64,000 nucleotides of DNA from a virus. The notes under the pieces are model-generated. The model did not search any database. It worked only from the letters and a program-made list of their open reading frames with translations, and had not been told where the DNA came from. Numbering within the stretch: the stretch's first letter is position 1; each line of letters starts with the position of its first letter. Location of the stretch: IMG/VR virus record IMGVR_UViG_3300023176_001394, positions 1-64,000 of that record; one strand, 5' to 3'. Shown here one piece after another: positions 20,074 through 51,242 of this stretch. A program made the position numbers and the translations under genes.

Positions 20074-20095
20074 ATACACAATACAGGAGTATCTT

Positions 20096-25248: not shown

Positions 25249-25459
25249 ATTTACAGTCAGAGAACTTCAATTAGAAAGTGCAAGGGCATTAAGCACCATG
25301 CAAGCAACAAGTAATAATATTACACAATTTAACAAAGAAGCACATCATAATAGTCATAACTGGTACAAAGCAGTAATTCTCTGGTATGTTGCTCAATATG
25401 GTGATTTGCCTAGTAAAGTTGGCCCAGGAAAAGATGTAAAGTTAGTACACGATGTATAG
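25235..25459 (+). CDS. Small unknown protein ahead of radical SAM genes (74 aa)
   Basis: A 74-residue protein overlapping both neighbours (14 bases upstream, 8 downstream). The start would be TTG at 25235 with AGAGG upstream; an ATG at 25298 with AGGG upstream would give a 53-residue form. It is rich in Asn, His and Gln in the middle (SNNITQFNKEAHHNSHNWYK), then WYVAQYGDLPSKVGPGKD, and has no cysteine. No family is recognised. Its position immediately before the first radical SAM gene makes it a candidate partner or substrate, but a leader/core cleavage site cannot be identified. Confidence 0.5.
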   Translation: MELDKFTVRELQLESARALSTMQATSNNITQFNKEAHHNSHNWYKAVILWYVAQYGDLPSKVGPGKDVKLVHDV

Positions 25460-26537
25460 ATACGAAAACATTAAAGAAGTACATTTAGAAATTACACAAC
25501 GTTGTCAAGCGGCCTGCCCTATGTGTGATAGAAATTGTAATGGCGGCACAGATAATCCTCACATAACAAATGCAGAGTTAAGTCTTGAAGATTGTAAACG
25601 TATTTTTAAACCAGACTTTATTAAACAACTTAACACAATGTATATGTGTGGCAACTTAGGCGATCCTATTGTTGCTAAAGATACACTAGAAGTTTTCAAA
25701 TATTTTAGAGAACATAACCCTAAAATGTGGTTGAGTATGAATACAAATGCAGGAGCAAAAGATGAAGCATGGTGGACTGAACTTGCCCAAGTTTTTGGTA
25801 GAATGGGTGCTGTTATTTTTAGCGTGGATGGCCTTAGGGATACTAATCACCTATACAGGCAGAATGTTGTTTGGGATAATGTAGAACGAAGTGCTAAGGC
25901 ATTTATTGCCGCCGGCGGTAGAGCTCGCTGGGATTTTATAGTTTTTGAACATAACGAACATCAAGTTGATCGTGCAGAAGAAATAGCGAACAGTATGGGT
26001 TTTGAAAAATTTGTAAGAAAAAAGACAGGCAGATTTTACAGCACTTCGCAACTTTCTGGAAAAGAAACGCACCAAGCAGTGAACAGAAAGGGAGAACAAA
26101 CACAAAATTTAGCAAAACCTAAAGATACAAAAAATATTAATTTAGCTTTGCTTAAAGAAGAAGAAATAACTAACACATACGGCAGTATGCAAAAATACTA
26201 TGATACCTGTTCTGTAAAATGTAAAGTTGCTGAACAAGGTAGTATATTTGTAACAGCCGAAGGCTTGTTAATGCCTTGTTGTTGGACTGCCGGACGTATG
26301 TATAAATGGTGGCATCCTGATCCAAGGGTAGAACAGATTTGGGATCATATTGACTCAGCAGGCGGAAAGGAAGGTATAGATATTATAAACAATGATCTTG
26401 AACAAGTAATGCAAGGAACTTTACTGAAAGGAATACAAGACAGTTGGTCTATACAAGGAATACAAAATGGAAAGTTAGGTGTCTGTGCAATGAAGTGCGG
26501 AACTGAGTTTGATCCATATGCGGAACAATTTAAATGA
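25452..26537 (+). CDS. Radical SAM protein with C-terminal SPASM-like cysteines
   Basis: 361 residues. The radical SAM [4Fe-4S] motif is Cys18-x3-Cys22-x2-Cys25 (QRCQAACPMC). A MCGNLGDP segment replaces the usual GGEP strand and SMNTNAG follows. Near residues 255-280 and at the end are further cysteines (SVKCKVAEQGSIF, LLMPCCWTAG, GVCAMKCGTE), the pattern of SPASM/twitch domains that bind auxiliary clusters. Such enzymes usually modify peptides or proteins. It overlaps the small gene upstream by 8 bases and the next radical SAM gene by 4 (ATGA). The two neighbouring radical SAM proteins look like paralogues. Substrate unknown. Confidence 0.82.
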   Translation: MYRYENIKEVHLEITQRCQAACPMCDRNCNGGTDNPHITNAELSLEDCKRIFKPDFIKQLNTMYMCGNLGDPIVAKDTLEVFKYFREHNPKMWLSMNTNAGAKDEAWWTELAQVFGRMGAVIFSVDGLRDTNHLYRQNVVWDNVERSAKAFIAAGGRARWDFIVFEHNEHQVDRAEEIANSMGFEKFVRKKTGRFYSTSQLSGKETHQAVNRKGEQTQNLAKPKDTKNINLALLKEEEITNTYGSMQKYYDTCSVKCKVAEQGSIFVTAEGLLMPCCWTAGRMYKWWHPDPRVEQIWDHIDSAGGKEGIDIINNDLEQVMQGTLLKGIQDSWSIQGIQNGKLGVCAMKCGTEFDPYAEQFK

Positions 26538-27598
26538 TAAACAAAATTGAATTAGAAATTACAAGTAACTGCAATGCGGCGTGTCCAGGATGTGCTAGAA
26601 CACTTAATAGTGATAGGTTAAAAATTAATAGTTTTAACTTTCATGATATTGTAAGATTGTTTCCTACTGAAGCAGACATACGTGGCAAAGAATTTAAATT
26701 TTGCGGAGTTTTAGGTGATCCGGCTCTTAATGTAGAATGCGTCAAGATGGTGGATTATCTAGTGACCAACGGAGCGTATTGCGAACTTAGTACAAACGGT
26801 GGCTATCAAACTGCACAATGGTGGAAAAGTTTAGGTGCAATAGCAAATGATTATCCTGGCAGATTGCATATACATTTTTGTGTAGACGGACATAAAGAAA
26901 CTAATCATATTTACAGAGTTAACACTAAATTTGATGTTATTGAAAGAAACATGCAAGCATTTTCGTCTGTTGCACCAAAAGAAAATGCGTCTTGGATATA
27001 CATTGTTTTTGATCATAATGAACACGAATTAGAAATTGCAAAACAGCATGCCAAAGAATTAGGTTTTAAATTTGCTACTAGAACAGGTATGCGTAATAGT
27101 TATGACGATTGGGTAGCTACATTAAAAAGAAAACAAAATAAAAAAATTGTAGAAGAAAAGAAAACTATTACAACAACCGGCGAAAAAGAACACAGCAAAG
27201 TAAAAACAGTAAAAGAATTAGACAAGTTTATTGAAGAATATCAAAACACTAAAGTAGATGAATCTAAGATAAAAGAAATTACTGATAGTATTGTTTGTAA
27301 GTACATTCACGAAGGAGAAATATTTATTGCCAGCGATTTAACTATGTGGCCTTGTTGTTTTCTCTGGGATAGTGCTTTTAAAAATAAAGAAGGTATATTA
27401 GACAAACTTTCTAACTTCGATCCTAACTGGAATAGTTTGAAAGTTCATTCTATACAAGAAGTTATGAAGCATCCGTGGTATCAAAAATTACTAAAAGCAA
27501 GTTGGCATCCATATCACGGTATGCATTTGCCTAGATGCATAAAAACTTGTGCAAAAAACAAAGCATATCATAACGAAATAAACTACGTAGTTAATTAG
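26534..27598 (+). CDS. Radical SAM protein, paralogue of the upstream enzyme
   Basis: 354 residues. The cluster motif is Cys13-x3-Cys17-x2-Cys20 (SNCNAACPGC). FCGVLGDPALN and LSTNGG parallel the MCGNLGDP and SMNTNAG segments of its neighbour, supporting duplication. Late cysteines (SIVCKYIHEGEIF, MWPCCFLW, RCIKTCAKN) point to a SPASM-like auxiliary cluster domain. A lysine/glutamate-rich insert near residues 195-250 is unusual and may be a flexible binding arm. The start overlaps the preceding stop (ATGA). It is likely a peptide- or protein-modifying enzyme; the reaction is not deducible. Confidence 0.82.
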   Translation: MINKIELEITSNCNAACPGCARTLNSDRLKINSFNFHDIVRLFPTEADIRGKEFKFCGVLGDPALNVECVKMVDYLVTNGAYCELSTNGGYQTAQWWKSLGAIANDYPGRLHIHFCVDGHKETNHIYRVNTKFDVIERNMQAFSSVAPKENASWIYIVFDHNEHELEIAKQHAKELGFKFATRTGMRNSYDDWVATLKRKQNKKIVEEKKTITTTGEKEHSKVKTVKELDKFIEEYQNTKVDESKIKEITDSIVCKYIHEGEIFIASDLTMWPCCFLWDSAFKNKEGILDKLSNFDPNWNSLKVHSIQEVMKHPWYQKLLKASWHPYHGMHLPRCIKTCAKNKAYHNEINYVVN

Positions 27599-27610
27599 GT
27601 AAGTATAAGT

Positions 27611-29011
27611 ATGACTAAAAAAGTATCCGACACTTGGTGTATTTTACCTTGGGTTCATCTATCAACTAGACCAGACGGAAGTATGCGTGTTTGTTGCACT
27701 GCTAATGCAAGCAGTGTAGGACCTACTAATGATAAAAAACATGGCGGACAAGTAGGAATATTAAAAACTGATGACGGCAAACCTAATAATCTTAATGTAA
27801 GCGATTTTGAAACAGCCTGGAATAGTACTTACATGAAAAATGTAAGACTACAAATGCTCAATGGAGAAATGCCTCCCAGTTGCATGAAATGTTACAAAGA
27901 AGAAGCGGCAGGACATAATAGTAAGCGTATGTGGGAGACCGCTTATTGGAGCGAGCGTGTTGATGTAGATAACCTAATTGCAAGCACAGCTGAAGATGGC
28001 AGCGTTCCTCCGCAACTTGCATATATTGATTTGCGTTTTGGTACCAAGTGCCAACTTGCGTGTGTAATGTGTAGCCCGCATGATAGTTCAGGTTGGATCA
28101 AAGATTGGAAAGCAATATTTCCTGCTGTTGAAAATGCTAGTCTAAAAGAAACCATGCAATGGAAAGACAAAGGAAGCTATAACGGTAGTAGTTACAATTG
28201 GCACAAACAAAATCCTACGTTTTGGAAACAGTTTTATGAACAAATGCCTAACATGCAACAAATATATTTTGCAGGCGGCGAAAGTCTTATTATTGAAGAA
28301 CACTACGAAATACTTGAAGAAGCAATACGTCAGGGTATTGCAAAAGATCTAGAACTGCGTTATAATAGTAATGGAGTCGAATGGCGTGAAGATTTGTTTG
28401 ATCTATGGAAAGAATTTAAATTAGTACGTTTCCATTATAGTGTAGACAGCATACACGAAATGAATAGTTATATTCGTTACCCTAGTAAATGGGAACGTAC
28501 AGAAGAAGTGTTTCATATACTTGATAAAGAAACTCCTGATAATACAGAAGTCACAGTTGCGTGTGCTGTACAAGCACTAAACATTTATTACATACCAGAT
28601 TTTATTAAATGGAAATTGCAACAAGGATTTAGAAAAATTAATATGTGGCCATTTGGAGCAGGAGGAATTAACTATCATTTTGTTTATCATCCTCCTCATT
28701 TAAATGTTAAAGTATTACCTAAATGGTTTAAAGAAGAATGCCGTCGCAAGTACGAAGAGTTTTATCCTTGGTGGGAAGAAAATTGGGAATTAGGAATTCC
28801 TAGTTGGCATAAAGGAAAAGTTACAAAAGAAAAATTTATGGACGCTGGTTATGGTATAAAAAGATTAGAAGGCATGCTAAAATTTATGGAAAGCGAAGAT
28901 TGGAGTGTACGTTTACCAGAGATGCAAGAATTTTTGAAACGATGTGACACTCAAAGAAGCAATAGTTTTGCTGAAACTTTTCCTGAAATGAAGGATATCT
29001 TTAATGGCTGA
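27611..29011 (+). CDS. Radical SAM protein with N-terminal twitch cysteines
   Basis: 466 residues, first of five proteins here with an auxiliary cysteine region before the radical SAM domain. Cys10 (WCILPWVHLSTRPDGS), Cys28-Cys29 and Cys91-x2-Cys94 (SCMKCYKEEAAG) form that region. The radical SAM motif is Cys147-x3-Cys151-x2-Cys154 (FGTKCQLACVMC). A FAGGESLI strand corresponds to GGEP. I recall NCBI naming such proteins twitch domain-containing radical SAM proteins. The start at 27611 has a short 12-base gap after the previous gene. It overlaps the next gene by 8 bases. Substrate unknown; SPASM/twitch enzymes commonly act on peptides. Confidence 0.83.
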   Translation: MTKKVSDTWCILPWVHLSTRPDGSMRVCCTANASSVGPTNDKKHGGQVGILKTDDGKPNNLNVSDFETAWNSTYMKNVRLQMLNGEMPPSCMKCYKEEAAGHNSKRMWETAYWSERVDVDNLIASTAEDGSVPPQLAYIDLRFGTKCQLACVMCSPHDSSGWIKDWKAIFPAVENASLKETMQWKDKGSYNGSSYNWHKQNPTFWKQFYEQMPNMQQIYFAGGESLIIEEHYEILEEAIRQGIAKDLELRYNSNGVEWREDLFDLWKEFKLVRFHYSVDSIHEMNSYIRYPSKWERTEEVFHILDKETPDNTEVTVACAVQALNIYYIPDFIKWKLQQGFRKINMWPFGAGGINYHFVYHPPHLNVKVLPKWFKEECRRKYEEFYPWWEENWELGIPSWHKGKVTKEKFMDAGYGIKRLEGMLKFMESEDWSVRLPEMQEFLKRCDTQRSNSFAETFPEMKDIFNG

Positions 29012-30353
29012 AAAAATTATTTGTCCCTATACATTAGGAGGAATAAATTACAAAAATGGTTTTGTAACTAGTTGTCCTCAGCAATCTGACAGGTTATGTG
29101 ATATTACAAATACTACTTTAAAGCCTTCTGATGTAATTAATAGTGAAGGGTTTCGTAAGCATCGTAAGGAAATGATGTCTGGTACTTGGAGTCCAGGGTG
29201 TCATTTGTGTAAAGATGCCGAAGCAATTGGTAGCCATAGTATGCGGCAAGACTTTGATTATATGCTTGATGAAGTGGTTGATTTAGATCTTTATAATGAA
29301 CAAACTGGTGAAATAGATTTTGCATCTGTAAAACATATAGAACTTAGGTTCAGTAATAGTTGTAATATGTCTTGCCTACATTGTTCAGACGTCTATTCGT
29401 CAGGATGGATGAGCAAATTAAAAAGATATACTTCAGATGAAGAAGATAGAAAACATAAACTTATACAACTAACTAGAGAATTTCATAAAACAGATCAAGA
29501 TGTAGATCTATCTATATCTATTGATATTTCACAAATGGAAGAAATTATTAATGATCTGCAAAATAATTTTCCTAATATAATGAAGGTAGATTTTTCCGGA
29601 GGTGAAGTTTTATATCAAAAGCAATTTTTTCCTTGTTTAAAATTATTAGCGGCTCATCCTAATGCGGCCAATATAAAAATTTCCTTCCATTCAAATTTTA
29701 ATGCTAGATTTGATCCTGTATTACTTAGTAAATTACTTAAACCATTTAATAGGACAATTATACATGTTAGTGTTGATGCAGGAAAAAATATTTATGGATA
29801 TTTTAGAACAGGCAACTGGCAAACATTAAAAAGAAATATCGACATATTTAGACGTATAGATAAAGAAACAGAACTTAATATTGTTTGTACTACAAGTGCA
29901 TACCAGATAATGGATATTAAAAATGTTTTCGAATCGTTTATGGAATTAGATGTAAACTTTATAGATAGTTCTATTGTGTATACACCTAAATATATGAATC
30001 CGGCGTTAATGAATTTAAAATTTAAACATTATGTAATAGAAGACTTTGCAGAAACAAGAGAAGCAATTCTTAATGAAAGGCAAAAACGTTTAGATAATTT
30101 AGACAACTATAAGAATAGAGCATCTTATAGACCTAATACACAAGGAGCAAGTTTTTCTGATATAGAAACTGCATTAAAAGGTTTAGACTTTTTAGAACAT
30201 TATGTGTTAAACAATAATGTTTCTGAAAGTGAATGGGAAGCATTTATGGTATACATTAGAAAAACTGATGAAATTTGGAAACAAAATTTTAACGATCATA
30301 TGGTTAATTATAAATTTACCGGCAATAATATTATAAGGAATCTCAATGTTTGA
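29004..30353 (+). CDS. Radical SAM protein with N-terminal twitch cysteines
   Basis: 449 residues. Auxiliary cysteines: Cys7 (ICPYTLGG), Cys24 (TSCPQQ), Cys66-x2-Cys69 (GCHLCKDAEAIGSHSMR). Radical SAM motif: Cys120-x3-Cys124-x2-Cys127 (SNSCNMSCLHC), followed by SDVYSSGWM. A DFSGGEVLY strand is the GGE equivalent. The CxxC...GHSMR signature is shared with the other twitch proteins of this island. It overlaps its neighbours by 8 bases on each side, implying coupled translation with the PP-loop protein downstream. The target is unknown. Confidence 0.82.
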   Translation: MAEKIICPYTLGGINYKNGFVTSCPQQSDRLCDITNTTLKPSDVINSEGFRKHRKEMMSGTWSPGCHLCKDAEAIGSHSMRQDFDYMLDEVVDLDLYNEQTGEIDFASVKHIELRFSNSCNMSCLHCSDVYSSGWMSKLKRYTSDEEDRKHKLIQLTREFHKTDQDVDLSISIDISQMEEIINDLQNNFPNIMKVDFSGGEVLYQKQFFPCLKLLAAHPNAANIKISFHSNFNARFDPVLLSKLLKPFNRTIIHVSVDAGKNIYGYFRTGNWQTLKRNIDIFRRIDKETELNIVCTTSAYQIMDIKNVFESFMELDVNFIDSSIVYTPKYMNPALMNLKFKHYVIEDFAETREAILNERQKRLDNLDNYKNRASYRPNTQGASFSDIETALKGLDFLEHYVLNNNVSESEWEAFMVYIRKTDEIWKQNFNDHMVNYKFTGNNIIRNLNV

Positions 30354-31170
30354 AATTAATAACAAATTATATGAAACAATTACACAAGATAAAATAGTAG
30401 AAACTTTTAGTAATTTAAAAATTGTTTTTGATCCTTCATGGAAAAAAGTTGGTGTTAATTTAAGTGGAGGTGCCGATAGTGCGTTGTTAACTTTCTTTAT
30501 TTGTTCTATTATTGAAAAACATAAATTAGATTGTACTGTGACTGCAATAACATATCAACGGTGTTGGGAAACAAGACCTTGGCAAGGTTATGTAAGCATA
30601 CAAGTATACAATTGGTTAAAAAGCAGATTTCCTAAAATTATAACTGACAGAATTACAAATTATATTCCGCCTGAATTAGAACACGGTGCTATAGGACCTA
30701 TTGTAAATGGCAGAAGCGGAGATCAGATTATTGTAGGAAGTTTTAATAGATTCGCTGCCTGGCAAAATAATTTAAATGCAGTTTATAATGCTACTAGCAA
30801 AAATCCAGATGCAAACCGTGCTGATAGAATGACAAATAGAGATAAAGACGCAGAGGACGGAGTACTTGAAGATGTATGGAGATACGGTAAAAAAGAAGAT
30901 GCATATCTTGCCCATCCTTTTCGATTTGTTAAAAAAGATTGGATAGTAGCACAATATTTTATCTACGGTATAGACGAGTTGTACTACATTACTCGTAGTT
31001 GTGAAGGCGATATAGAGCAACACGAAATTATAAAAAGAGCATGTGGCCATTTCAAAGATTATAAAGATGGAATGGACATTCCTTTGTGCAAACAGTGTTG
31101 GTGGTGTGAAGAAAGGCAATGGGCCGAAGATAGACTGCAAGAAACTATTAGGGAAATTGATCGTGGCTAA
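30346..31170 (+). CDS. PP-loop ATPase, QueC/ExsB-like
   Basis: 274 residues. The PP-loop that binds ATP pyrophosphate is SGGADS at residues 40-45. A C-terminal cysteine cluster (Cys248, Cys251, Cys254 in LCKQCWWCEER) sits where QueC binds zinc. QueC adenylates 7-carboxy-7-deazaguanine and converts it to the nitrile preQ0; related PP-loop enzymes activate other carboxylates or nucleobases. The central part (GRSGDQIIVGSFNRFAAWQ) differs from ordinary QueC, so the substrate is probably different. It lies between two twitch radical SAM genes with 8-base overlaps, suggesting a shared pathway. Confidence 0.7.
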   Translation: MFEINNKLYETITQDKIVETFSNLKIVFDPSWKKVGVNLSGGADSALLTFFICSIIEKHKLDCTVTAITYQRCWETRPWQGYVSIQVYNWLKSRFPKIITDRITNYIPPELEHGAIGPIVNGRSGDQIIVGSFNRFAAWQNNLNAVYNATSKNPDANRADRMTNRDKDAEDGVLEDVWRYGKKEDAYLAHPFRFVKKDWIVAQYFIYGIDELYYITRSCEGDIEQHEIIKRACGHFKDYKDGMDIPLCKQCWWCEERQWAEDRLQETIREIDRG

Positions 31171-32482
31171 TACATTTTGTCCTATACCTTGGATATTTCA
31201 AGCCGCTAGAGCAAACGGAGATCTACGTGTTTGCTGTCAAGCCAACGTAACAAAAAATAGAGGTGTAATACGCAAAGCAGACGGCACAGCATACAATGCA
31301 GGATCCGACGACTTAGACGAAGCTCGTAATGCAGATCTAATGAAAGAAATGCGTTTGAATATGCTTCAAGGTAAATGGAACAAAGAATGCGGTCGTTGTT
31401 TAGCTGAAGAAACTTCAGGCTTAAACAGTAGACGGCAATATGAACAAGAGCAATGGAATTACACATTAGAAGATGCAATAAAAGATACAGAAGATGATGG
31501 TACTATAGATGTAACGTCTACTCCTGTAAAATATTATGATCTTAGATTTGGCAATTTTTGTAATTTAAAATGTCGTATGTGTGGACCTACTGATTCAAAT
31601 GCTTGGTATGATGATTGGATAAAACTTACTGGTTCTAATTTTTTTAAAGAAACAAGTGGCGATATTGAAATAAAACAAATAAACGGTAAACTTTGTGCTA
31701 GTGAATATGATTGGCCTAATCACGAACCTTTTTGGGAATATTTAGAAAAACATATTAACAATATTAGACACATATATTTTGCAGGCGGAGAGCCTATGTT
31801 GATTGATCGACACTATGATTTTTTGCAACGTTGTATTGATCAAGATTCTGCAAAAGACATTATTATTGAATATAATACTAATATGAGTACACTACCTCCT
31901 AGAGTTGCAAAACTATGGGAAAATTTTAAACAGGTTAGAGTAGGAGCAAGTATAGACGGATACGGCAAAGTTATAGAATATCAGAGACATCCTGCTAAAT
32001 GGGACAAGTTGTATAAAAACTTACTTACACTAGATAACATGCCCAGCAATATAATTGGTTGGTTAGCATTTACAGTTACAGCATATAATGTTAATCATAT
32101 GATTGACTTTATGAAATGGAAACTTACAGAGAGCAACTTTAATAAAATTAATAGCACAACCAGGCGTCCGATAGTCACACATCATGTTGCTCATCATCCT
32201 CAACACTTAAATATTAGAGTGTTGCCAGATGAAGCAAAAGAAAAATTAACCAAAAGATTTGAAGAATTTGTGCAATGGACCAAGGATAAAAATTTTAATG
32301 AGCATGTAGTTAAGCAGGCACAAGACATTGCAAACGGTGTGTGTACGTATATGAATAGTGACAGTTACTACAACACCCATTGGGAAGAATTCCAACGCTA
32401 CACGAAGCGTTTAGACGCTATACGCGGCGAAAATTTAACAGAAGTAGAACCTGCATTCAAGGAATATTTAAATGAGTTTTGA
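31163..32482 (+). CDS. Radical SAM protein with N-terminal twitch cysteines
   Basis: 439 residues from a GTG start at 31163; a longer frame from 31043 would overlap the PP-loop gene by 128 bases. The GTG has AGGGA upstream and overlaps the previous stop by 8 bases, like other junctions here. Auxiliary cysteines are Cys6 (FCPIPWIFQAARANGD), Cys24-Cys25 and Cys76-x2-Cys79 (ECGRCLAEETSG). The radical SAM motif is Cys133-x3-Cys137-x2-Cys140 (FCNLKCRMC). FAGGEPML is a canonical GGEP strand. It is closely similar in layout to the protein encoded at 27611. A peptide- or protein-modifying function is inferred from the twitch region. Confidence 0.82.
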   Translation: MANTFCPIPWIFQAARANGDLRVCCQANVTKNRGVIRKADGTAYNAGSDDLDEARNADLMKEMRLNMLQGKWNKECGRCLAEETSGLNSRRQYEQEQWNYTLEDAIKDTEDDGTIDVTSTPVKYYDLRFGNFCNLKCRMCGPTDSNAWYDDWIKLTGSNFFKETSGDIEIKQINGKLCASEYDWPNHEPFWEYLEKHINNIRHIYFAGGEPMLIDRHYDFLQRCIDQDSAKDIIIEYNTNMSTLPPRVAKLWENFKQVRVGASIDGYGKVIEYQRHPAKWDKLYKNLLTLDNMPSNIIGWLAFTVTAYNVNHMIDFMKWKLTESNFNKINSTTRRPIVTHHVAHHPQHLNIRVLPDEAKEKLTKRFEEFVQWTKDKNFNEHVVKQAQDIANGVCTYMNSDSYYNTHWEEFQRYTKRLDAIRGENLTEVEPAFKEYLNEF

Positions 32483-33659: not shown

Positions 33660-33661
33660 CC

Positions 33662-36504: not shown

Positions 36505-36533
36505 TTGACATATTTAATTAAAGGTAGTATACT
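36505..36533 (+). promoter_or_regulatory. Sigma70-type promoter giving a near-leaderless transcript
   Basis: TTGACA at 36505-36510 and TATACT at 36528-36533 are 17 bases apart. The expected start site, 6-7 bases past the -10 box, falls at about 36539-36540, which is the ATG of the next gene (36539-36541). No ribosome site fits between. The -35 box overlaps the stop codon region of the preceding gene. Confidence 0.72.
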
Positions 36534-36538
36534 AAATT

Positions 36539-38791: not shown

Positions 38792-38821
38792 CTAATAACT
38801 CCTGGTAACAATGCTTTATTA

Positions 38822-38829
38822 TATTTATC
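38822..38829 (-). promoter_or_regulatory. T4-type late promoter box GATAAATA
   Basis: Read on the minus strand, GATAAATA lies about 31 bases upstream of the ATG at 38791 in a 63-base gap. It would start late transcription of the Mtd-type fibre gene. Confidence 0.65.
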
Positions 38830-38854
38830 TCTATTCAAACTTTATGCATTAGTC

Positions 38855-39415: not shown

Positions 39416-39418
39416 ATT

Positions 39419-39979: not shown

Positions 39980-41400
39980 AATGATAACAATTTCCTAGTA
40001 TATTGACTTACTCTATCTTTAATTGTGTTACTATAAAGTTGTTTATCTAATTCTTGATATCCTAAATGATACAGTTCGTCAATAGTATGTATACCTAAAC
40101 TTGCTATAGCAAATTTATTCCAGGCAGAAATCTTTAATGATTTAACAACTTGATCTGTATATGTATTAGACATTTTTAGTGCTTCATCAAAATTCATGTA
40201 TTCTGTTTGCCATTTAATATTGCCGTCAATGTATTCTAAAGTATATCCGTACAATTTATAATTTATATCAATATCACTTCTATATACGTTATTAGGATTT
40301 ATAAACAATGGCATTATCCAAAAGTTAATATCGTTGTCTAAACACCAATTACCGGTATCTATACAACTTTCTTTACTTTCATAAGGCAAGCCAAAAATAA
40401 AAGTACACATAAAACTAATCTTATTTTTCCATCTATCTTTAAGATAAAGTAAAAAATCTTTAGTCTTGTCTTCACTCATTCCTTTACCTATAAATTTAGC
40501 TGTTTCAGGATTAAAACTTTCTACCCCAAAGTGGCACGATTTCAATCCCATCTCTTCTAATAATTTAAGTTGAGTGTCTCTGTATCTATACAATAAATCA
40601 ACTCTTAAATAACATACAAACGATATTTTAAAAGGCAAACTTGTTATCATCTTATGAAGCATTTCTAGTTTGTCATTGCTATCATTAAATGTATCATCGC
40701 TTATCAAATAGTTTGTTACGCCCCATTTTTCGTAATTGTTAATAAGTTCCTTTTTAATATGCTCTACATCTCTAATATGATCTAGTTTCTTTTTTCCATT
40801 TAAAGGATAGGCGCAAAATTTACATCTAAAAATACAGCCTCTACTTATTTCTAAAGGAAGTGTTTCGTTTTCAAAAATTAAATCATCATCGCAAAATAGA
40901 TGATTAATCTGCTGTGCATCAAAATCTTTGAGATACAGATCTCCTGATATTATTTTACTAGTATTTTCGTTTTGAATAAGTTTTAAAAAGCCTATTTCGC
41001 CATAGCCTGTGATTATATGATCAACAAAACTGTATTCCTCTAATGTCTTAGCTTTAGCTCCTCCGGCTACAATTTTTACATGTGGGTACAATTTTTTATA
41101 TTCTGTAAGAACAAAAATAAAATCGTCGCGTAAGGTTTTTCCGTATTTTTTCTTTTCTGCGGCTACATGAACTTGGTCGCTTAAAAAGGTAGTGCTTATG
41201 CCTAAAAATTTTGTTTCGTTGCTTGTAAAATGTTTTAATAATTCTAAAATAGTTTCTTTTGGAATAAGATGTATGTAATCAATTACTTGGGTTGTATATC
41301 CATGAGATTTTATAAAATTAGACATCTGGTATGCACCGATACTTCGTTCAAACCAAGGTGTCATTACACCTGTTAAAAAAATAACTTCTGCAGATTTCAT
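39976..41400 (-). CDS. Radical SAM protein with B12-binding-like N-terminal domain
   Basis: 474 residues. The first ~150 residues have the alternating strand/helix layout of a cobalamin-binding Rossmann domain (HVKIVAGGAKAKTLEEY, IITGYGE), but no DxHxxG motif for cobalamin axial ligation is present. The radical SAM motif is Cys189-x3-Cys193-x2-Cys196 (LEISRGCIFRCKFC), followed by AYPLNGKKKLDHIRD. FGVESFNPETAK is typical of BchE-like enzymes. It shares the island subfamily with proteins at 41397 and 46048. It overlaps its neighbours by 4 bases (ATGA) on both sides. Methyl transfer or ring chemistry is possible. Confidence 0.8.
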   Translation of the reverse strand: MKSAEVIFLTGVMTPWFERSIGAYQMSNFIKSHGYTTQVIDYIHLIPKETILELLKHFTSNETKFLGISTTFLSDQVHVAAEKKKYGKTLRDDFIFVLTEYKKLYPHVKIVAGGAKAKTLEEYSFVDHIITGYGEIGFLKLIQNENTSKIISGDLYLKDFDAQQINHLFCDDDLIFENETLPLEISRGCIFRCKFCAYPLNGKKKLDHIRDVEHIKKELINNYEKWGVTNYLISDDTFNDSNDKLEMLHKMITSLPFKISFVCYLRVDLLYRYRDTQLKLLEEMGLKSCHFGVESFNPETAKFIGKGMSEDKTKDFLLYLKDRWKNKISFMCTFIFGLPYESKESCIDTGNWCLDNDINFWIMPLFINPNNVYRSDIDINYKLYGYTLEYIDGNIKWQTEYMNFDEALKMSNTYTDQVVKSLKISAWNKFAIASLGIHTIDELYHLGYQELDKQLYSNTIKDRVSQYTRKLLSL

Positions 41401-42842
41401 TGGCTACGTAACCTTTTCTTATAATCAGAAATTAGTTCTATTATTCTTTGCATCATTAATGGTCTATATTTTGCGCCTTCAGACATTTTCATATGCATTG
41501 CTTCGTCAATAGTTTTGATTCCTAGTGTAGCAAGAGAAAATAAGACCCAAGTATGTATCTCACTAATACTTAATGCTTTGTATTGATAATCTTGTGCAAG
41601 TTTGGCTGCTTCTAAAAAATTAGTAAATTTGTTTTGCCATATGTTTTTCCCCGACTCTATCATTTCATATCCGTATTTTTCGTAGTTTTTGTCAAACTCA
41701 CTTTTATATCTTGCAGTAGGTCTTAAAAATAACGGAGCCCAAATTGTATTAATTTTATTTTCGTATGTCCAATTGAAACTATCGTTAACACTATCTAAAC
41801 TTTCTTCAGGTAGGCCTATTATCATCGAACAAACAAAATTTATTTTATCTTTAAAATGATCATGTTTTAGTTCTAACAACCAATCTTTGACTTTGTCAGA
41901 CGCCATACCTTTACCAACAAGTTTTGCTGTTTGAGGATTTAAACTTTCTATGCCGAAAAATGCACTTCTAAGTCCTAGGTCTTTTAATAGATCAACTTGT
42001 TCTCTATGGGCATAAAGTAAATCTTGTCTAATATATGAAGTAAACTGAGGCTGGAAAGTTAGTTGGTCAAATGCTTCTTTAAGTATTTCTAGTTTATATG
42101 TACTATCATTAAATGTATCATCTGTAAAAAAGTAATTGGTTACTCCGTATCTATCATAATTATTTTGCAACTCTTGTGCAATTAAATTTGCACCTCGTAT
42201 ATAATCTAGTTTCTTTTTGCCTGTTAAAGGATAGTTACAAAATTTACACTTAAAGATACAACCTCTTCCTATTTCTATAGGCAGTGTCTCTCCAGGCAAT
42301 ATAAAATCATTGTCTTCCCAATGATGTGTAAGTTTTTCAATGTCTACTGGAAATTGATCGCCTTCTATAACAGATTTATTATTTTCTGTTTTCCATATTC
42401 TTGTATTTTTTACATATTCTTTTAAAGATGTTTCGCTGTATGCATGGAAAACTGCATCAAAAAAAGGATACTGAGGATGCAAATAACTGTTTGCTCCGCC
42501 GAGAATAAATTTAATTTTAGGAAATTCTTTTTTTAGTTTTTCTAAAGTAAATGTAATATTTTTTGGTAACCCGAATTTAAAATTCTCCCAATAGGCATCT
42601 TTGTCGGGCAGTTCGGTTTGGTAAAAAGTCGAACTTACGCCTATGTATTGTGTATTGTCACCTATAAAATCTTTAACAGTTTGATACAGTTCTTCAATTT
42701 CAAACCAATCTGTAAAATCTATTACTTGCGTAGATAGTCCTAGATCGTGTCTAAAAACATGTGCAACGTTATAAACGCCTAGTGAACGTTGTAACTGTGA
42801 TCTAGACGTGACACTAGAAAGTAAAATAACATCATATTTCAT
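41397..42842 (-). CDS. Radical SAM protein with B12-binding-like N-terminal domain
   Basis: 481 residues, a close paralogue of the next gene. The N-terminal Rossmann-like part (KIKFILGGANSYLHP, VFHAYSE) lacks a DxHxxG motif. The radical SAM motif is Cys195-x3-Cys199-x2-Cys202 (LPIEIGRGCIFKCKFC), followed by NYPLTGKKKLDYIRG, and FGIESLNPQTAK. The C-terminal ~130 residues are helical. It overlaps by 4 bases (ATGA) with the 2OG-type gene upstream and the paralogue downstream. Substrate unknown. Confidence 0.8.
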   Translation of the reverse strand: MKYDVILLSSVTSRSQLQRSLGVYNVAHVFRHDLGLSTQVIDFTDWFEIEELYQTVKDFIGDNTQYIGVSSTFYQTELPDKDAYWENFKFGLPKNITFTLEKLKKEFPKIKFILGGANSYLHPQYPFFDAVFHAYSETSLKEYVKNTRIWKTENNKSVIEGDQFPVDIEKLTHHWEDNDFILPGETLPIEIGRGCIFKCKFCNYPLTGKKKLDYIRGANLIAQELQNNYDRYGVTNYFFTDDTFNDSTYKLEILKEAFDQLTFQPQFTSYIRQDLLYAHREQVDLLKDLGLRSAFFGIESLNPQTAKLVGKGMASDKVKDWLLELKHDHFKDKINFVCSMIIGLPEESLDSVNDSFNWTYENKINTIWAPLFLRPTARYKSEFDKNYEKYGYEMIESGKNIWQNKFTNFLEAAKLAQDYQYKALSISEIHTWVLFSLATLGIKTIDEAMHMKMSEGAKYRPLMMQRIIELISDYKKRLRSQ

Positions 42843-43417
42843 GCTTTACAAATTACTAAATGTATTCTATCTTCCCAGCCTCCATTGTATATAAAATGAT
42901 CTCTAGTAGTATCAACTTTATAAAAATGACCATCTGCTGGTAAATGATAGCATTTAGCGGCTACTCCTTCGGTGCCGTGATACTCGCCAAATAGCGCACC
43001 TGGATTAGTTTCTATAACTAAATGGTATCTTGGTTCTAAATCTTTATGTATGCTCAATCCTCTTTTAGATTTTGCTTTCATAAAACGTATTCGACCAAAA
43101 CTAGTACCTTCTTTTTCTGCAAGTATATTAATTGCTTGTTTTGTGTATTCTCCCAAATAAGGATTATAGTTGCAAAAGTCTTTTTCTTCTGCTAAAAATT
43201 TTTTTGTTTCAGGGTCATATAAAGACCCCATAGCGTCATTCCATATGTCTTCAGCTCCATTACGATGTGTAATACCAATTTGATCACCTGGTGCACCAGT
43301 ATCAAACCTAGGTTCAGGCCATGGATTTATCTTTAGAAGTTCGTCTAACTCATTTCTAACTTTATCTAAATTAACTGTGCAATCTGTCTTTGTTATAAAA
43401 TCCATTAATTTTTCCAA
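42839..43417 (-). CDS. Aspartyl/asparaginyl beta-hydroxylase-like oxygenase
   Basis: 192 residues. His124-x-Asp126 (GLSIHKDLEPRYHLVIET), His174 (TTRDHFIYNGG) and Arg184 (WEDRIHLVI) reproduce the HxD...H...R arrangement of beta-hydroxylase-type 2OG oxygenases, including the Arg-Tyr-His strand after the HxD. The N-terminal ~100 residues are helical and may bind the substrate. It overlaps the radical SAM genes on both sides (13 and 4 bases), so it is co-expressed with them. A protein or peptide hydroxylase acting with the radical SAM enzymes is the reasonable inference. Confidence 0.74.
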   Translation of the reverse strand: MEKLMDFITKTDCTVNLDKVRNELDELLKINPWPEPRFDTGAPGDQIGITHRNGAEDIWNDAMGSLYDPETKKFLAEEKDFCNYNPYLGEYTKQAINILAEKEGTSFGRIRFMKAKSKRGLSIHKDLEPRYHLVIETNPGALFGEYHGTEGVAAKCYHLPADGHFYKVDTTRDHFIYNGGWEDRIHLVICKA

Positions 43418-44484
43418 CTATCTTTCCAGTAATCAAATTTTGAGTCTATCATTGATCTGTACTGATATCTTTCCGGTACAGTATCTAACATAGGCATATT
43501 CATATTTTTAAATGCATCTCTAGTAATTACTTGATGCACAAAATTTGTAATCGGTCCATCATAAAACTGACACCAAGGACCTGTTGCTAATTCTTCCATG
43601 TCTATATTAGTTACATCAGGCCATTGTATTAGTCTTAAAAGTTTGTCATTCCATTGTAGCATAACATGGTAAGGGTTGTCGTCTGATTTATAACTAGAAA
43701 CTTCGTTGTTTGTAAGTTCTTTTATTTTTTTGACAAGATTACTAAGAAAACTTCTTTGTTTATCATTGCTTCTACCTATAAAACTTCCGCATCTTATTCT
43801 AAAATGATTAATTTTAGGATGATCAATTTTCTTTATTTCATCTAATATAAATTCTAAATGGTCTAAGTTTTCTATAGTGTATCCTACATATCCTATATCA
43901 AAATCATGTTCTATAAGTACATCTAAAGCCCTTAGTTGTTTCGCATGTACTGCTTCTCCTTGATAACTAGGATGATTTAGACCGAAGCACATTGTTTTTA
44001 ACCCTGCATCATAACATCCTTTTGTAAATTTAGGGTCAGCAAATCTTATTCCATTGCTTAGAACTTCCTGGCGCATAAAATTTAATTTGTTTATTTCTTG
44101 ACACAGTTCTATGAAATCTGGTCTAAGTGTTGCTTCTGCTCCGGCAAGCATCGGTGCAGATTCTCTTGGAAATTTATCTAATTGCGCTATTACATCAGCA
44201 ATTGGCCTATCTTGTATTTTGTTATCAGGCAAATGATAGCAATGAGGGCAGTTCAATTGACATCTATCACTAGCTTCAAAAAGTATTTGATTAAAAGATT
44301 CTATGTCTCTATGATGTTCTAAAGAATAGTAAAAATCAGTATCTATTTCTACTAAACTATGTTGTACACCATGTTCAGGACATTCTTTCTCCATTTTTAT
44401 TTGGGAGCCGTCTTGATATACTTTTCCAGGTATATGTTTAAAGCATTTATTGCATAAACTTATTGTATCATGAATATGTTGCAT
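43405..44484 (-). CDS. Radical SAM protein with N-terminal zinc-ribbon-like cysteines
   Basis: 359 residues. The N-terminus has Cys11-x2-Cys14 (LCNKCFKHIPGKVYQDG) and Cys35 with His38 (KECPEHG), the pattern seen in COG1964-type radical SAM proteins such as pterin and lipid-modifying enzymes. The radical SAM motif is Cys75-x3-Cys79-x2-Cys82 (DRCQLNCPHCYHLPD). The GGEP strand is altered to AGAEATLRPDF. It overlaps the PP-loop protein gene upstream by 17 bases. The pairing suggests one pathway. The substrate class (pterin, lipid or other) cannot be chosen from sequence. Confidence 0.78.
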   Translation of the reverse strand: MQHIHDTISLCNKCFKHIPGKVYQDGSQIKMEKECPEHGVQHSLVEIDTDFYYSLEHHRDIESFNQILFEASDRCQLNCPHCYHLPDNKIQDRPIADVIAQLDKFPRESAPMLAGAEATLRPDFIELCQEINKLNFMRQEVLSNGIRFADPKFTKGCYDAGLKTMCFGLNHPSYQGEAVHAKQLRALDVLIEHDFDIGYVGYTIENLDHLEFILDEIKKIDHPKINHFRIRCGSFIGRSNDKQRSFLSNLVKKIKELTNNEVSSYKSDDNPYHVMLQWNDKLLRLIQWPDVTNIDMEELATGPWCQFYDGPITNFVHQVITRDAFKNMNMPMLDTVPERYQYRSMIDSKFDYWKDSWKN

Positions 44485-45328
44485 TTCGTAACTCTTCTAA
44501 TTTTTTTCTACGATGTACAATAGCATCTTTATCGTAAGGAGTATTATCTGTTACTCCGGGTTTGTTCAAGATCCTAAATGCATCATATCTTTGTTGACAA
44601 TTAAAACACTCGCCGCAGTGTTTTCCGTTTTTTGTTATACTGTCTAATATACAGGAACTAGTTTCATAGGCTTTGTCTAAAAATCCTAATTGATCATAAA
44701 AATCTATTACTTCACATTTATTTAATTCTTTAAATGGACTTAAAATGAAATCACTTTCACCTCTTAGTAAAGGATATACATCTGCCGGTATATCTATATC
44801 TAAAAGATACTTGTCGTACTCTCTAGTATCTAAGTGAAATTCTTCTATAGTATGTTTAAAACGTTTTGGGTCTGCAAATGCCATTTCAACAACTTTATCT
44901 ACAGTAAGTCCGTCTTGTTTAAAAGGTTCAACTTCAAAGAATAATTTAGTAAACCCCCAAAGGGTAAAATCAACATTATATTTTTCTCTAACTTTTTGTA
45001 TATTTGCTTCTACAGATGCTTTACGATCTGTAACATGAAAATCGTAATCAAACTCTAGATATTCAGGTTGTATGTTTAAAAGTTTTGCTGATCTTGACAA
45101 ATTAGTAGCTATATATTTGTTGAGGTCTTCGTTATTATTAGAAAAAATGTTATCACTATAAAAACAAATTACATTTTCCTTGCCGTATTTTTCGAATGCA
45201 ATCAAACTTACTAACGTGCTTTCTAATCCGCCAGATAAGAATACACCTACTTTATTTTTTGCATTAGGAAAGTGCGCATCTATAACAAAATTAAAATTTG
45301 TTGGTTTTAAAACATAACTTTTATTCAT
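44468..45328 (-). CDS. PP-loop ATPase, QueC-like, with C-terminal zinc site
   Basis: 286 residues. The PP-loop is SGGLES at residues 32-37. The C-terminus has Cys226, Cys238, Cys241 and Cys244 (SSCILDSITKNGKHCGECFN), the same four-cysteine spacing style as the zinc site of QueC, which makes preQ0. With FolE and QueE in the window it could complete the 7-deazaguanine route, but it sits beside a COG1964-like radical SAM gene rather than with folE/queE, and QueD is not in this window. A different carboxylate substrate is equally possible. It overlaps the methyltransferase gene by 4 bases (ATGA). Confidence 0.68.
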   Translation of the reverse strand: MNKSYVLKPTNFNFVIDAHFPNAKNKVGVFLSGGLESTLVSLIAFEKYGKENVICFYSDNIFSNNNEDLNKYIATNLSRSAKLLNIQPEYLEFDYDFHVTDRKASVEANIQKVREKYNVDFTLWGFTKLFFEVEPFKQDGLTVDKVVEMAFADPKRFKHTIEEFHLDTREYDKYLLDIDIPADVYPLLRGESDFILSPFKELNKCEVIDFYDQLGFLDKAYETSSCILDSITKNGKHCGECFNCQQRYDAFRILNKPGVTDNTPYDKDAIVHRRKKLEELRNATYS

Positions 45329-45987
45329 TTTACTTTTGCTGATATCATCATTAAATTGCCGCTATCTGCACCTTCGAATGTTAAGACTTCGTGTTCCATT
45401 TCTAAATTTGTAAGTTGTTCTCTTACTTCTTGTTCAGTAAATGCGGCATATAGAGATCTTCGTAAACTGTCAATGTATTCTTCGTTGTCTTGACCCCATT
45501 CGGCAACTATGTTCTCTAGTTCTTCTTCGGTATTAGGACGCAAGAGATCCATTACCATAATAATTCCTCCGGCTTCGGGAATTTTGCTTGCACTATTCCA
45601 GAATACAGTAGGATCTTCAAAATGATGAAGTACACCGTGACTTATAACTGTGTTACAGTTTTCTACATGTCCTACATCTTCTATCATAATATTTTTTAAT
45701 GTTACATAATCTTCTATACCGTTGCTCTTAATTGTTTGTCTAGCAGTTTCTATCATTCCTTTTGAACCATCTACAGACAAAAAGTGTAAATCATCTATTA
45801 CGTCAAGTAGAGTTACTTCAAGATTAGCAACTCCGCAACCTAAATTTACTATTATTCCTTCTTTGTTTTTTCTGAATTTAAACCATTCTGAGAAACTTGT
45901 ATTAACTAAATTTCTGTTAATCATAGCCCAGCTGTCTATTTCGTTTTTATTTTCTATCAGTGCAGGTTCTGGGATTCGGGTTATCAT
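45325..45987 (-). CDS. SAM-dependent class I methyltransferase
   Basis: 220 residues from the ATG at 45987 (AGGAG upstream); a longer frame reaching 46125 would run across the divergent gene's start and is rejected. IIVNLGCGVANLEVTLLDV is the glycine-rich SAM-binding loop, LHFLSVDGSKGMIETARQTI gives the acidic residue after strand two, and NTVISHGVLHHFEDP is the motif near the catalytic cleft of many small-molecule methyltransferases. It heads the minus-strand operon and is divergent from the radical SAM gene at 46048. Substrate unknown. Confidence 0.77.
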   Translation of the reverse strand: MITRIPEPALIENKNEIDSWAMINRNLVNTSFSEWFKFRKNKEGIIVNLGCGVANLEVTLLDVIDDLHFLSVDGSKGMIETARQTIKSNGIEDYVTLKNIMIEDVGHVENCNTVISHGVLHHFEDPTVFWNSASKIPEAGGIIMVMDLLRPNTEEELENIVAEWGQDNEEYIDSLRRSLYAAFTEQEVREQLTNLEMEHEVLTFEGADSGNLMMISAKVK

Positions 45988-46013
45988 ATATACTCCTATG
46001 CTTATACTTATCA

Positions 46014-46025
46014 GGTAAATATTTA
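46014..46025. promoter_or_regulatory. Possible divergent late promoter pair (weak)
   Basis: The 60-base divergent gap contains a palindromic TAAATATTTA. On the plus strand it reads GGTAAATA, on the minus strand CTTAAATA, each with one mismatch in the fixed positions of NATAAATA. Distances to the two starts (46048 and 45987) are suitable. The assignment is tentative. Confidence 0.3.
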
Positions 46026-46047
46026 AGGACAAATCAAACTGACAAAC

Positions 46048-47577
46048 ATGCACGGAATCATACTTACTGGTTTTGCTGGACAGGCATCTTTTAAGGCAAG
46101 CTATAAAAGAACCGGTGGAGCCCATAGAATAGCTACATATCTCAGAGAGTTAGGATGGGATATAGAAGTCTTGGATTTTATTATGGGTTGGAATTATGAA
46201 CAACTTGTTGAATTCTCACGGTCAAGAATTACAGATAAAACTGTATGGTTAGGGTTTGGCGGTACTTTTCCAATATGGTCAGGAACTTTACAACGTTTTT
46301 TCAACTGGTTTAGAAAAACTTATCCTAATGTAAAAATTATTGCAGGAGGACAAATTTCTAACATTCATAAGATAGAAGCAGACTGGTATGTTACAGGATT
46401 TGGCGAAAAGGCTATGGATGCTCTATTAAAACATATTGTTAGTAATACATCTTTGAAATATAAATTAGATAAAAATGGTAGGAAAGTTGTTGACGGGAAC
46501 CATGACTATCCGAGCTTTCCTATGAAAGATTTACACATTAGTTATCAGGATAGAGATTTTATTTTACCTAATGAAACTCTAGTAACAGAGTTAGGTCGCG
46601 GTTGTATATTTAAATGCTCTTTTTGTAATTTTCCGGTACTAGGAGTTAAAGAAGATCATTCAAGAGGTGCAGAAAATTTAAGAAAAGAACTACAAGAAAA
46701 CTACGATAAATGGGGAGTCACAAAATATGTAATTGCAGACGAGACTGTAAATGATTACTCTGAGAAGTTAGAAAAGTTTGCGAATGTTATAAAAAAATTG
46801 AACTTTAAGCCTAGAATGTACGGGTACGCTAGAGCTGACTTACTTGTATCTAGGAAAAAAGACTGGGATACTATGATAGAAATGGGATTCACCGGTCATC
46901 ACTATGGAATCGAATCAACAAATCCTGCAACATTAAAAGCTGTAGGTAAAGGCATGCATCCTGATAAACTGTTGCCTGGATTGTTAGAAGCTAGAAAATA
47001 CTTTAAAGATAATTCAAATTATAAAGGGCAAGTAAGTTTAATTGCAGGATTACCTCATGAAACTCCTGACACTTTTAAAAAAGGAGTAGAGTGGTTTAAT
47101 AAAAATTGGAGAACAGAAAATGTTATGATGTTTCCTTTTTATATTCCTAAAAAAACTAGTGCCGATACGTTATCTAGTATGAGCGTTGATCATTCTAAGT
47201 ACGGATATACAGAAACTGAAGAAGACTTATACGTTAAAATTAAAGAATTATATAGAGCGATACCTGCACAATATGGAATGGGAGATGGATTAAACGAAAC
47301 AACCGGTTTAAGTTGGAAAAATGAACATTGGAATATATTCGATGTTAGTAAATCTGTTGTAGACTTTTACACGGATAAAAATTATAGATTAACCTATGGT
47401 CCTTTACTTTGGCATATAGGAGAATATGAATTAACTTTTAACAAAGACTTAGACTACTTTAATGATAAAACATTAGCAGATTTAAACATAGGTAATCAAA
47501 TTCAACTAGTACAGGCTAGTAATAAATTAATAGCATCCTATATAGAAAAAAAATTAAATTATGGAAATAGCAGATGA
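46048..47577 (+). CDS. Radical SAM protein with B12-binding-like N-terminal domain
   Basis: 509 residues. N-terminal ~150 residues resemble a cobalamin-binding fold (NVKIIAGGQISNIHKIEADW, VTGFGE) without a DxHxxG motif. The radical SAM motif is Cys186-x3-Cys190-x2-Cys193 (ELGRGCIFKCSFCNF). YGIESTNPATLKAVGKGMHP parallels the FGVESFNPETAK of the minus-strand paralogues, so this is the third member of that subfamily, on the opposite strand. No strong ribosome site is seen at this ATG. It overlaps the SDR-like gene by 4 bases (ATGA). Likely part of the same chemical system. Confidence 0.8.
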   Translation: MHGIILTGFAGQASFKASYKRTGGAHRIATYLRELGWDIEVLDFIMGWNYEQLVEFSRSRITDKTVWLGFGGTFPIWSGTLQRFFNWFRKTYPNVKIIAGGQISNIHKIEADWYVTGFGEKAMDALLKHIVSNTSLKYKLDKNGRKVVDGNHDYPSFPMKDLHISYQDRDFILPNETLVTELGRGCIFKCSFCNFPVLGVKEDHSRGAENLRKELQENYDKWGVTKYVIADETVNDYSEKLEKFANVIKKLNFKPRMYGYARADLLVSRKKDWDTMIEMGFTGHHYGIESTNPATLKAVGKGMHPDKLLPGLLEARKYFKDNSNYKGQVSLIAGLPHETPDTFKKGVEWFNKNWRTENVMMFPFYIPKKTSADTLSSMSVDHSKYGYTETEEDLYVKIKELYRAIPAQYGMGDGLNETTGLSWKNEHWNIFDVSKSVVDFYTDKNYRLTYGPLLWHIGEYELTFNKDLDYFNDKTLADLNIGNQIQLVQASNKLIASYIEKKLNYGNSR

Positions 47578-51221: not shown

Positions 51222-51242
51222 AATGTTCTCCTTAGTATAAAA

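Follow-up and report, generated by a model that had tools for sequence, protein, structure and literature searches.

A constant core with early-type promoter motifs and an open set of radical-SAM genes occupy one genomic slot in a clade of uncultured T4-like phages

The stretch of DNA analysed here, hereafter called the window, comprises 64,000 of the 66,087 bases of the IMG/VR virus record IMGVR_UViG_3300023176_001394 and contains an island of radical S-adenosylmethionine (SAM) genes beside tail-fibre-like genes. Genes are named below by their lowest coordinate in the window. In this record and its relatives, the radical-SAM genes share one slot, which combines a constant core (GT-A/GT8-type glycosyltransferases, the protein 24205, a mini-protein present in most records, and three radical-SAM enzymes) that carries early-type promoter motifs with an open accessory set, in which further radical-SAM genes are accompanied by varied PP-loop, oxygenase, methyltransferase, epimerase, aminotransferase, nitroreductase, and halogenase genes. 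An initial annotation, made from the letters of the window, had described 13 proteins with intact CxxxCxxC motifs clustered within 22 kb, in overlapping genes on both strands. This description held: the motif was present in all 13 radical-SAM proteins of the island, a search of the whole 66,087-base record with the radical-SAM profile PF04055 returned 13 matches, all at 25.4–47.6 kb, and the genes overlap one another on both strands.

The domain assignment itself was borne out by profile searches for nearly the whole set. Eleven of the 13 matches scored above the curated PF04055 cut-off. In hmmscan, 29004 (29004–30353) reached 26.4 bits against a cut-off of 29.5, yet it passed the N-terminal-twitch model N_Twi_rSAM (NF033640) with 209.7 bits against a cut-off of 170. 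The protein 26534 (26534–27598; 19.6 bits) scored above no cut-off and was assigned solely by its motif and its similarity to other island enzymes. Five of the 13 proteins exceeded 170 bits with N_Twi_rSAM (27611, 29004, 31043, 34197, and 35287, with 419 bits for 27611), whereas the other eight did not. Weak twitch/SPASM-like scores were obtained for 25452 and 26534, and weak MoaA/viperin/QueE-like scores for 32472 and 36539; the best weak models for 32472 were MoaA and viperin, and 36539 failed both viperin cut-offs (40.0 and 20.9 bits against 180 for NF038283 and 450 for TIGR04278). Three proteins, 39976, 41397, and 46048, resemble the B12-binding type, their matches to the B12-binding domain being below the cut-off or absent, and 43405 is a radical-SAM protein with an HMPTM zinc ribbon. 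Among the best 25 NCBIfam matches of each protein, none of the 13 reached the cut-off of a named equivalog or a named cofactor enzyme; because no such cut-off was reached among the matches listed, no reaction can be read from a family name. Chance motif matches were ruled out by the profile scores. The island itself is not a product of chance, as radical-SAM matches were also found in 59 of 59 related records searched.

The core genes lie on the plus strand, directly downstream of genes with late-type promoter motifs. One such motif (AATAAATAC, 17358–17366) precedes a tail-fibre-like gene (17391–18905), and another (TATAAATAA, 18901–18909) precedes the gene 18937–20040, both on the plus strand. 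A sigma-70-type early promoter (20045–20075) then heads the operon of glycosyltransferase, mini-protein, and radical-SAM genes. Its first gene (20096–20443) encodes a protein of 115 amino acids without a Pfam match and is followed by a probable GT-A glycosyltransferase (20436–21266; glycogenin at E 0.34), a GT8-like glycosyltransferase (21259–22068; profile match to glycogenin at E 6e-6), a protein with no assigned function (22055–22624), and the GT-A-type glycosyltransferase 22614 (22614–24221), which forms the left border of the island. The core protein 24205 (24205–25248) and the mini-protein (25235–25459) come next, and the stop codon of the latter overlaps the start of core radical-SAM enzyme 1 (25452–26537; PF04055). 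The run continues with the radical-SAM-like protein 26534, core enzyme 2, which is of the N-terminal-twitch type (27611–29011), the N-terminal-twitch enzyme 29004, a PP-loop ATPase-like protein (30346–31170), another N-terminal-twitch enzyme (31043–32482, whose start may be at 31067), the radical-SAM enzyme 32472 (32472–33659), a possible 2-oxoglutarate (2OG) oxygenase (33662–34204), and two further N-terminal-twitch enzymes (34197–35297 and 35287–36504). A second sigma-70-type early promoter (36505–36533) precedes core radical-SAM enzyme 3 (36539–37657; PF04055).

The island recurs in a divergent clade of T4-like, uncultured phages, in which it takes up approximately 30–50 kb of the genome. 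Scans of IMG/VR returned 324 relatives for 27611 (80 kept), one for 39976, and 457 for the mini-protein (80 kept). Matches to PF04055 numbered 2–21 per record in 30 of 30 records from the 27611 and 39976 scans and 1–24 per record in 29 of 29 records from the mini-protein scan (27 above the cut-off). Sixteen related records were read, one of them (G007) for its first 40 kb, and radical-SAM genes were called by motif and blastp linkage. In these records and the window, 227 of the 228 radical-SAM genes lay between the orthologues of 22614 and those of the right-flank genes, with the slot taken to the contig end in the three records that have no right border (G001, G011, and G015). Scattered single acquisitions were thereby ruled out, and the gene-order comparison called for by the initial annotation found that the set stays linked in relatives. 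Family counts were made on 16 records, omitting G001, which belongs to the window's own population. At 50% identity, 219 radical-SAM genes fell into 117 families, 92 of which were private to one record, and the families of 27611 and 36539 were present in 16 of 16 records and that of 25452 in 15 of 16. With three core families and 92 private families of 117, the system consists of a few constant members and an open periphery. The number of families varied with the identity threshold (37, 98, 117, 133, and 168 at 30, 40, 50, 60, and 80%, respectively), and single-record families made up 67 of 98 at 40% and 23 of 37 at 30%. Across the 15 other records, 27611 was 84–89% and 36539 was 78–86% identical. 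The joined relatives carry T4-type portal, prohead protease, capsid, gp46/47, gp55, DNA polymerase, terminase, and sheath proteins, with identities of approximately 25–40% to those of the pelagiphage HTVC008M. We also observed phage core genes on three contigs of metagenome-assembled genomes (MAGs) labelled Gammaproteobacteria, Rickettsiales, and Neisseriaceae (L254, L255, and L256), which are probably phage contigs binned with bacteria.

The high density of radical-SAM genes had been called unusual for a phage. This stands in comparison with the four cultured phages in which PF04055 matches were counted (HTVC008M, one; KVP40, five; K566, six; and D481, four), but such density is normal for this uncultured clade, and 12 radical-SAM genes in a single T4-like genome had already been published in 2017, according to the accessible text of PMC5332604.

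The glycosyltransferase 22614 also belongs to the core, and its family occurred in 16 of 16 records compared. It is a single two-domain gene in the window and in G002, G005, G012, and G027, is fused to 24205 in G007, G013, and G023, and is represented by two genes, sometimes apart, in the remaining eight records. Two GT-A domains were predicted in the window copy, and its best Foldseek match was chondroitin polymerase (E 1.4e-6), although GT-A-like nucleotidyltransferases also aligned to the predicted structure. An invariant DxD motif was found in all three glycosyltransferase families (20436, 21259, and 22614). The neighbouring 24205 had no Pfam or PDB match, and its C-terminal end looks methyltransferase-like by eye. 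It contains repeats of approximately 23 amino acids (EDLRKAVTEKNVHSLFRLLGDEH type), of which a pattern count gave zero to nine copies per record; these repeats could represent a multi-core precursor or, equally, a helical solenoid.

The mini-protein, a 74-amino-acid frame with a TTG start in the window, was not among the program-made open reading frames. It was found by tblastn in 14 of 16 independent records and was not found in the other two (G017 and G018), even at E 10, both of which keep the three core radical-SAM enzymes. At all 83 loci gathered with it, a set that contains redundant loci, 22614- and 24205-type genes lay upstream, and a 25452-type gene lay downstream at 79, directly so at 64; the remaining four loci end 1 to 1,429 bases past the mini-protein. 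AlphaFold2, run with 18 sequences, predicted a three-helix bundle (mean predicted local distance difference test score, pLDDT, 86.8; predicted template-modelling score, 0.76). The sequence is highly conserved along its length, with a variable C-terminus, and the window copy has no cysteine. No clear structural relative was found (best Foldseek E 1.0; best Z 4.5), and matches to PDB profiles look like short chance alignments. The candidacy of the mini-protein as an unstructured precursor of a ribosomally synthesized and post-translationally modified peptide was lowered by its predicted fold and its absence from G017 and G018. We infer that it may be a partner, a scaffold, or a folded substrate.

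The promoter data described here are pattern matches, not expression data. In a blind 7-mer count over 17 records, ATAAATA, which we take to be the T4-type late motif, occurred in 98 of 424 upstream stretches, compared with 36 on the reverse complement, and TTGACAA occurred in 39, compared with 12. In the first set of orthologues, scored with fixed patterns and reverse-complement controls and without G001, the late motif preceded 9521 in 11 of 12 cases, 14093 in 8 of 10, and 17391 in 10 of 14 (late controls 0). Conversely, the first gene of the core operon, 20096, had early-type promoters in eight of nine and late motifs in none of nine, and 36539 had early-type promoters in 12 of 16 and late motifs in none of 16 (late control 2). 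Within the island, the Mtd_N gene was late in four of four, and the RNase-H-like gene 58910 was early in 11 of 11. A second set, which partly overlapped the first and was de-duplicated, gave early-type promoters for 20096 in 11 of 13 (late 0 of 13) and for 36539 in 14 of 28 (late 1 of 28). According to the motif counts in both sets, the core looks early, and the accessory part looks mixed rather than uniform.

The accessory part of the window continues on the minus strand with a tail-fibre-like protein with an Mtd_N domain match (37649–38791; late-type promoter motif at 38821–38829, also minus), an accessory protein that looks acetyltransferase-like by eye and has no Pfam match (39419–39979), two radical-SAM enzymes placed in the B12 type by weak similarity (39976–41400 and 41397–42842), a 2OG-type Asp/Arg hydroxylase-like oxygenase (42839–43417), the radical-SAM enzyme with the zinc ribbon (43405–44484), a QueC-like PP-loop ATPase (44468–45328), and a class I methyltransferase (45325–46125). 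On the plus strand follow a third enzyme of the B12 type, again by weak similarity (46048–47577), a short-chain dehydrogenase/epimerase-like protein (47574–48149), a late-type motif (48080–48088), and, directly after it, two related small proteins that look cupin-like by eye and have no Pfam match (48149–48649 and 48642–49208). Two oxygenases with 2OG-FeII_Oxy_5 profile matches come next, one on the plus strand (49198–49818) and one on the minus strand (49810–50442), together with a minus-strand protein that is methyltransferase-like by eye, without a Pfam match (50442–51221), and has a late-type motif at 51242–51250. The unit looks wider than first stated, at approximately 20.1 to 51.2 kb. 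The conserved right flank (54857–57374, minus strand) consists of a phrog_1314 protein and a phrog_1297 ATPase, whose orthologues had early-type promoters in 13 of 14 and 11 of 13 cases. A GTP cyclohydrolase I gene (61738–62421) and a TauD-family dioxygenase gene (62717–63802) also lie in the window, outside the island.

The partner enzymes named in the initial annotation were recovered in part. Of its two PP-loop ATPases, 44468 passed the QueC profile PF06508, although it scored 29.4 bits against the TIGR00364 equivalog cut-off of 150.3, whereas 30346 has the SGGADS motif and a conserved C-x2-C-x2-C but no Pfam match. Among its 2OG oxygenases, 42839 passed Asp_Arg_Hydrox, and 33662 shows an HxD pattern by eye and had no 2OG-oxygenase match in Pfam. 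It had spoken of methyltransferases in the plural, and one, 45325, was found within the 22 kb that it described. Among the accessory genes of the islands, single representatives matched an epimerase, GDP-mannose dehydratase, RmlD, an FkbM methyltransferase, and an aminotransferase. Single accessory representatives also matched tryptophan halogenase, a SET domain, and SAM decarboxylase, and a nitroreductase-like family was present in 13 of 16 islands and absent from the window.

Outside the clade, N-terminal-twitch enzymes were rare in the bacteria sampled. The NF033640 cut-off was exceeded in 3 of 398 genomes of one bacterial phylum (G061, G138, and G173), in 1 of 78 genomes from the order and class to which G138 belongs, and in 2 of 385 genomes in the class of G173 (G173 and G805). 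G061, a MAG with phage-core contigs, was set aside. With MAGs carrying phage-like contigs treated apart, all three of the over-cut-off bacterial loci that were opened were of a glycan type. The G138 locus contains RmlC, RmlD, an ABC-2 permease, TylF, another methyltransferase, WbsX, and four N-terminal-twitch genes, one of which encodes an 840-amino-acid ABC_tran–Wzt_C–SPASM–radical-SAM fusion (L277:8579-11101), that is, an O-antigen exporter ATPase with its C-terminal domain joined to a twitch enzyme. The G173 locus contains an epimerase and a GT2 gene, and the G805 locus contains GT8, GT2, and GT41 genes, an epimerase, methyltransferases, and a second radical-SAM gene with a below-cut-off B12-binding match. 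In the Vibrio phage K566, four radical-SAM genes of the twitch type by eye, one of them below the PF04055 cut-off, share their locus with two GT8 genes and a GT4-like gene that scored below its cut-off. Phage QD01, which is listed with Vibrio natriegens Vmax as its host, matches a K566 radical-SAM enzyme at 25%. In KVP40, three radical-SAM genes are accompanied by a QueC-like gene, to which the PP-loop profile of the island gave no match, and by one whose annotation names PF00534. Among cultured phages, 27611 matched only K566/K567, at 20%, and 39976 had no match; tblastn searches of 50,697 phage records with 36539, 22614, and the mini-protein found nothing. Next to its radical-SAM and glycosyltransferase genes, K566 encodes an LpxC-family lipid A enzyme (L170:22444-23250, 140 bits), annotated only as hypothetical, near an annotated PagP.

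Because glycosyltransferases are constant partners of the core, the three bacterial loci are of a surface-glycan type, and the core looks early, we favour early tailoring of a saccharide, probably an envelope glycan of the host, by a hypervariable locus with an early-expressed core, and give this reading a probability of about 0.42. The initial annotation had suggested a multi-step modification or biosynthesis system acting on a fibre, peptide, glycan, or nucleoside; the class appears right, and the evidence leans towards the glycan without settling the matter. Under early saccharide tailoring, the glycosyltransferases would build or extend a saccharide, and the radical-SAM and partner enzymes would carry out hard chemistry on a sugar or nucleotide-sugar (C-methylation, epimerization, dehydration, or amidation) with reducing power from the host, with the mini-protein as a possible partner or scaffold of the core enzymes. 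The product would be the envelope glycan of the infected host, altered shortly after injection to keep rival phages or latecomers from adsorbing, and swapping accessory cassettes next to the fibre genes may allow receptor and fibre to change together. A bolder version, in which the constant core acts as a "coat generator" that recruits approximately 100 exchangeable radical-SAM families to produce unprecedented saccharides on the host or virion, seems to us doubtful.

Several observations weigh against early saccharide tailoring. In the second promoter set, the late motif preceded the fibre genes 14093 and 17391 in only two of five cases each, and 18937 in four of four. Of 69 accessory radical-SAM operons, 15 were early-like (control 2), nine were late-like (control 1), and most were neither; upstream of 27611, the late motif was present in 6 of 75 loci and the early motif in two (control 4). 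The cupin-like and 2OG genes of the window have late motifs, and the minus-strand run of GT8 and radical-SAM genes in K566 is preceded by a late motif and a gene that looks structural. No glycosyltransferase was found among the 25 of 39 Pfam families listed for 72 non-radical-SAM representatives, a set that excludes 22614, 20436, and 21259. No export gene was recognized in the island and a transmembrane stretch was predicted in 12 of 449 non-radical-SAM island proteins; the host would therefore have to supply export. A twitch-like gene in G365 (L279:8486-9655; 87 bits, below the cut-off) lies among ribosomal-protein-type genes, its neighbours being, by eye, those for ribosomal protein S16 and RimM. 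In the larger records, which were counted rather than read, the radical-SAM matches are spread over up to approximately 84 kb (G042), and because of this span, some of them probably lie outside the slot. Finally, the case is one of guilt by association, and the bacterial loci number three.

The position of the island, directly after fibre-like genes, is also what would be expected if its enzymes modified virion proteins, above all the tail fibres, with hydroxyl, methyl, cross-link, or glycan groups that diversify the fibres. The Mtd_N fibre-like gene with its late motif inside the island, a family loosely linked to this gene that is present in 12 of 16 islands, and the late-type motifs at part of the K566 cassette and at the cupin-like and 2OG genes of the window point in the same direction, and SPASM/twitch radical-SAM enzymes often act on peptides. 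However, the promoters of the core operon and of core enzyme 3 are of the early and not the late type, and the three over-cut-off bacterial relatives lie in surface-glycan-type clusters, so that we consider fibre modification unlikely.

We regard as less probable still that the island makes a modified peptide or a peptide-scaffold product of the phage, with the mini-protein as its precursor or carrier. The mini-protein is well conserved, has a fixed place between 22614/24205-type genes (83 of 83 loci) and a 25452-type gene (79 loci, 64 directly), and overlaps the start of 25452 in the window. Nevertheless, it is missing from two of 16 records that keep the core enzymes, its predicted bundle is well folded and, apart from the variable C-terminus, conserved throughout, with no cysteine in the window copy, no protease or exporter was recognized, and it remains constant while most of the enzyme families (92 of 117) occur in a single record. 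We consider it very improbable that the enzymes modify nucleotides or the DNA of the phage, introducing, say, a deazaguanine or another hypermodified base. Early-type promoters, the QueC-like PP-loop protein, the weak QueE-like similarity of 36539, the GTP cyclohydrolase I gene in the window, and the QueC-like gene beside the radical-SAM genes of KVP40 would all suit this reading, but the QueD family was found in none of 12 large records and a thymidylate-synthase family in one of the 12, all of them possibly incomplete and with TGT and DpdA outside the search, and B12-type and twitch enzymes would not fit such a pathway. Auxiliary metabolism that supports host iron–sulfur (Fe–S) or cofactor supply during infection, which is how the accessible text of PMC5332604 reads a T4-like genome with 12 radical-SAM genes and Fe–S-related genes, is just as improbable, as none of the 13 proteins reached the cut-off of a named cofactor enzyme among its best 25 NCBIfam matches and a repertoire that stays open, with many private families, does not look like housekeeping.

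If early saccharide tailoring is correct, phages would be a main home of the uncharacterized N-terminal-twitch subfamily, with five members in the window compared with 3 of 398 genomes sampled from one bacterial phylum, one of which has phage-core contigs. Oxygen-sensitive radical chemistry would then be linked to how phages compete for the host surface, and the islands would offer numerous novel enzymes that modify sugars or proteins. At approximately 7.5 kb, the core (22614 to 29011 plus 36539) is compact enough for expression and testing.

Two of the papers that bear on this island are those of Nishimura et al. 2017 (PMC5332604) and Zaragoza-Solas et al. 2020 (PMC7029224). Phages rich in radical-SAM genes are not new. 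The accessible text of PMC5332604 reports 12 radical-SAM genes in one 183-kb T4-like genome, together with Fe–S-related genes read as auxiliary, that of PMC7029224 describes how pelagimyophages carry glycosyltransferases and cassettes of radical-SAM genes in a hypervariable host recognition cluster, and that of PMC7150976 reports Tasman Sea phage samples enriched in radical-SAM domains, with glycosyltransferases and methyltransferases. Two Xanthomonas papers (PMC3130047 and PMC2883993) concern other genes, as far as their accessible text goes. In the published literature searched, with most subscription papers outside the search, the fixed core, the mini-protein, the early/late split, and the link of twitch enzymes to Wzt and GT8 were undescribed.

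The island shares features with several known systems. The G138 cluster, an O-antigen-type cluster with an ABC exporter, likewise has radical-SAM genes of the N-terminal-twitch type, four in all, including the Wzt fusion; however, it lies on a bacterial contig with its own exporter, whereas the phage island has no recognized exporter. The loci of K566 and KVP40 resemble the island in their radical-SAM genes, of the twitch type by eye, near glycosyltransferase genes, and in the QueC-like gene of KVP40, but they contain four and three radical-SAM genes, respectively, gave no tblastn match to 36539, 22614, or the mini-protein, and, in the case of KVP40, encode enzymes only 20–26% identical to those of the island. 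The genome TARA_ERS488813_N000010 (PMC5332604) is marine and 183 kb long and, like the present phages, T4-like and rich in radical-SAM genes; its genes were reported as Fe–S auxiliary genes, and the accessible text describes no locus, core, promoter, or glycan link. The host recognition cluster of pelagimyophages, in the accessible text of PMC7029224, is also a hypervariable, glycosyltransferase-rich island beside the tail fibres of T4-like marine phages; it differs between MAGV3 and MAGV16 by radical-SAM gene cassettes, and host-surface modification by the glycosyltransferases of a similar region was argued there. The T4-type proteins of HTVC008M match those of the present clade at only approximately 25–40%, and its VrlC and the neck protein gp14, which border the cluster, had no blastp match at E 1e-4 in seven records. 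In the island described here, radical-SAM genes are the main content and are built around a fixed core of three enzymes.

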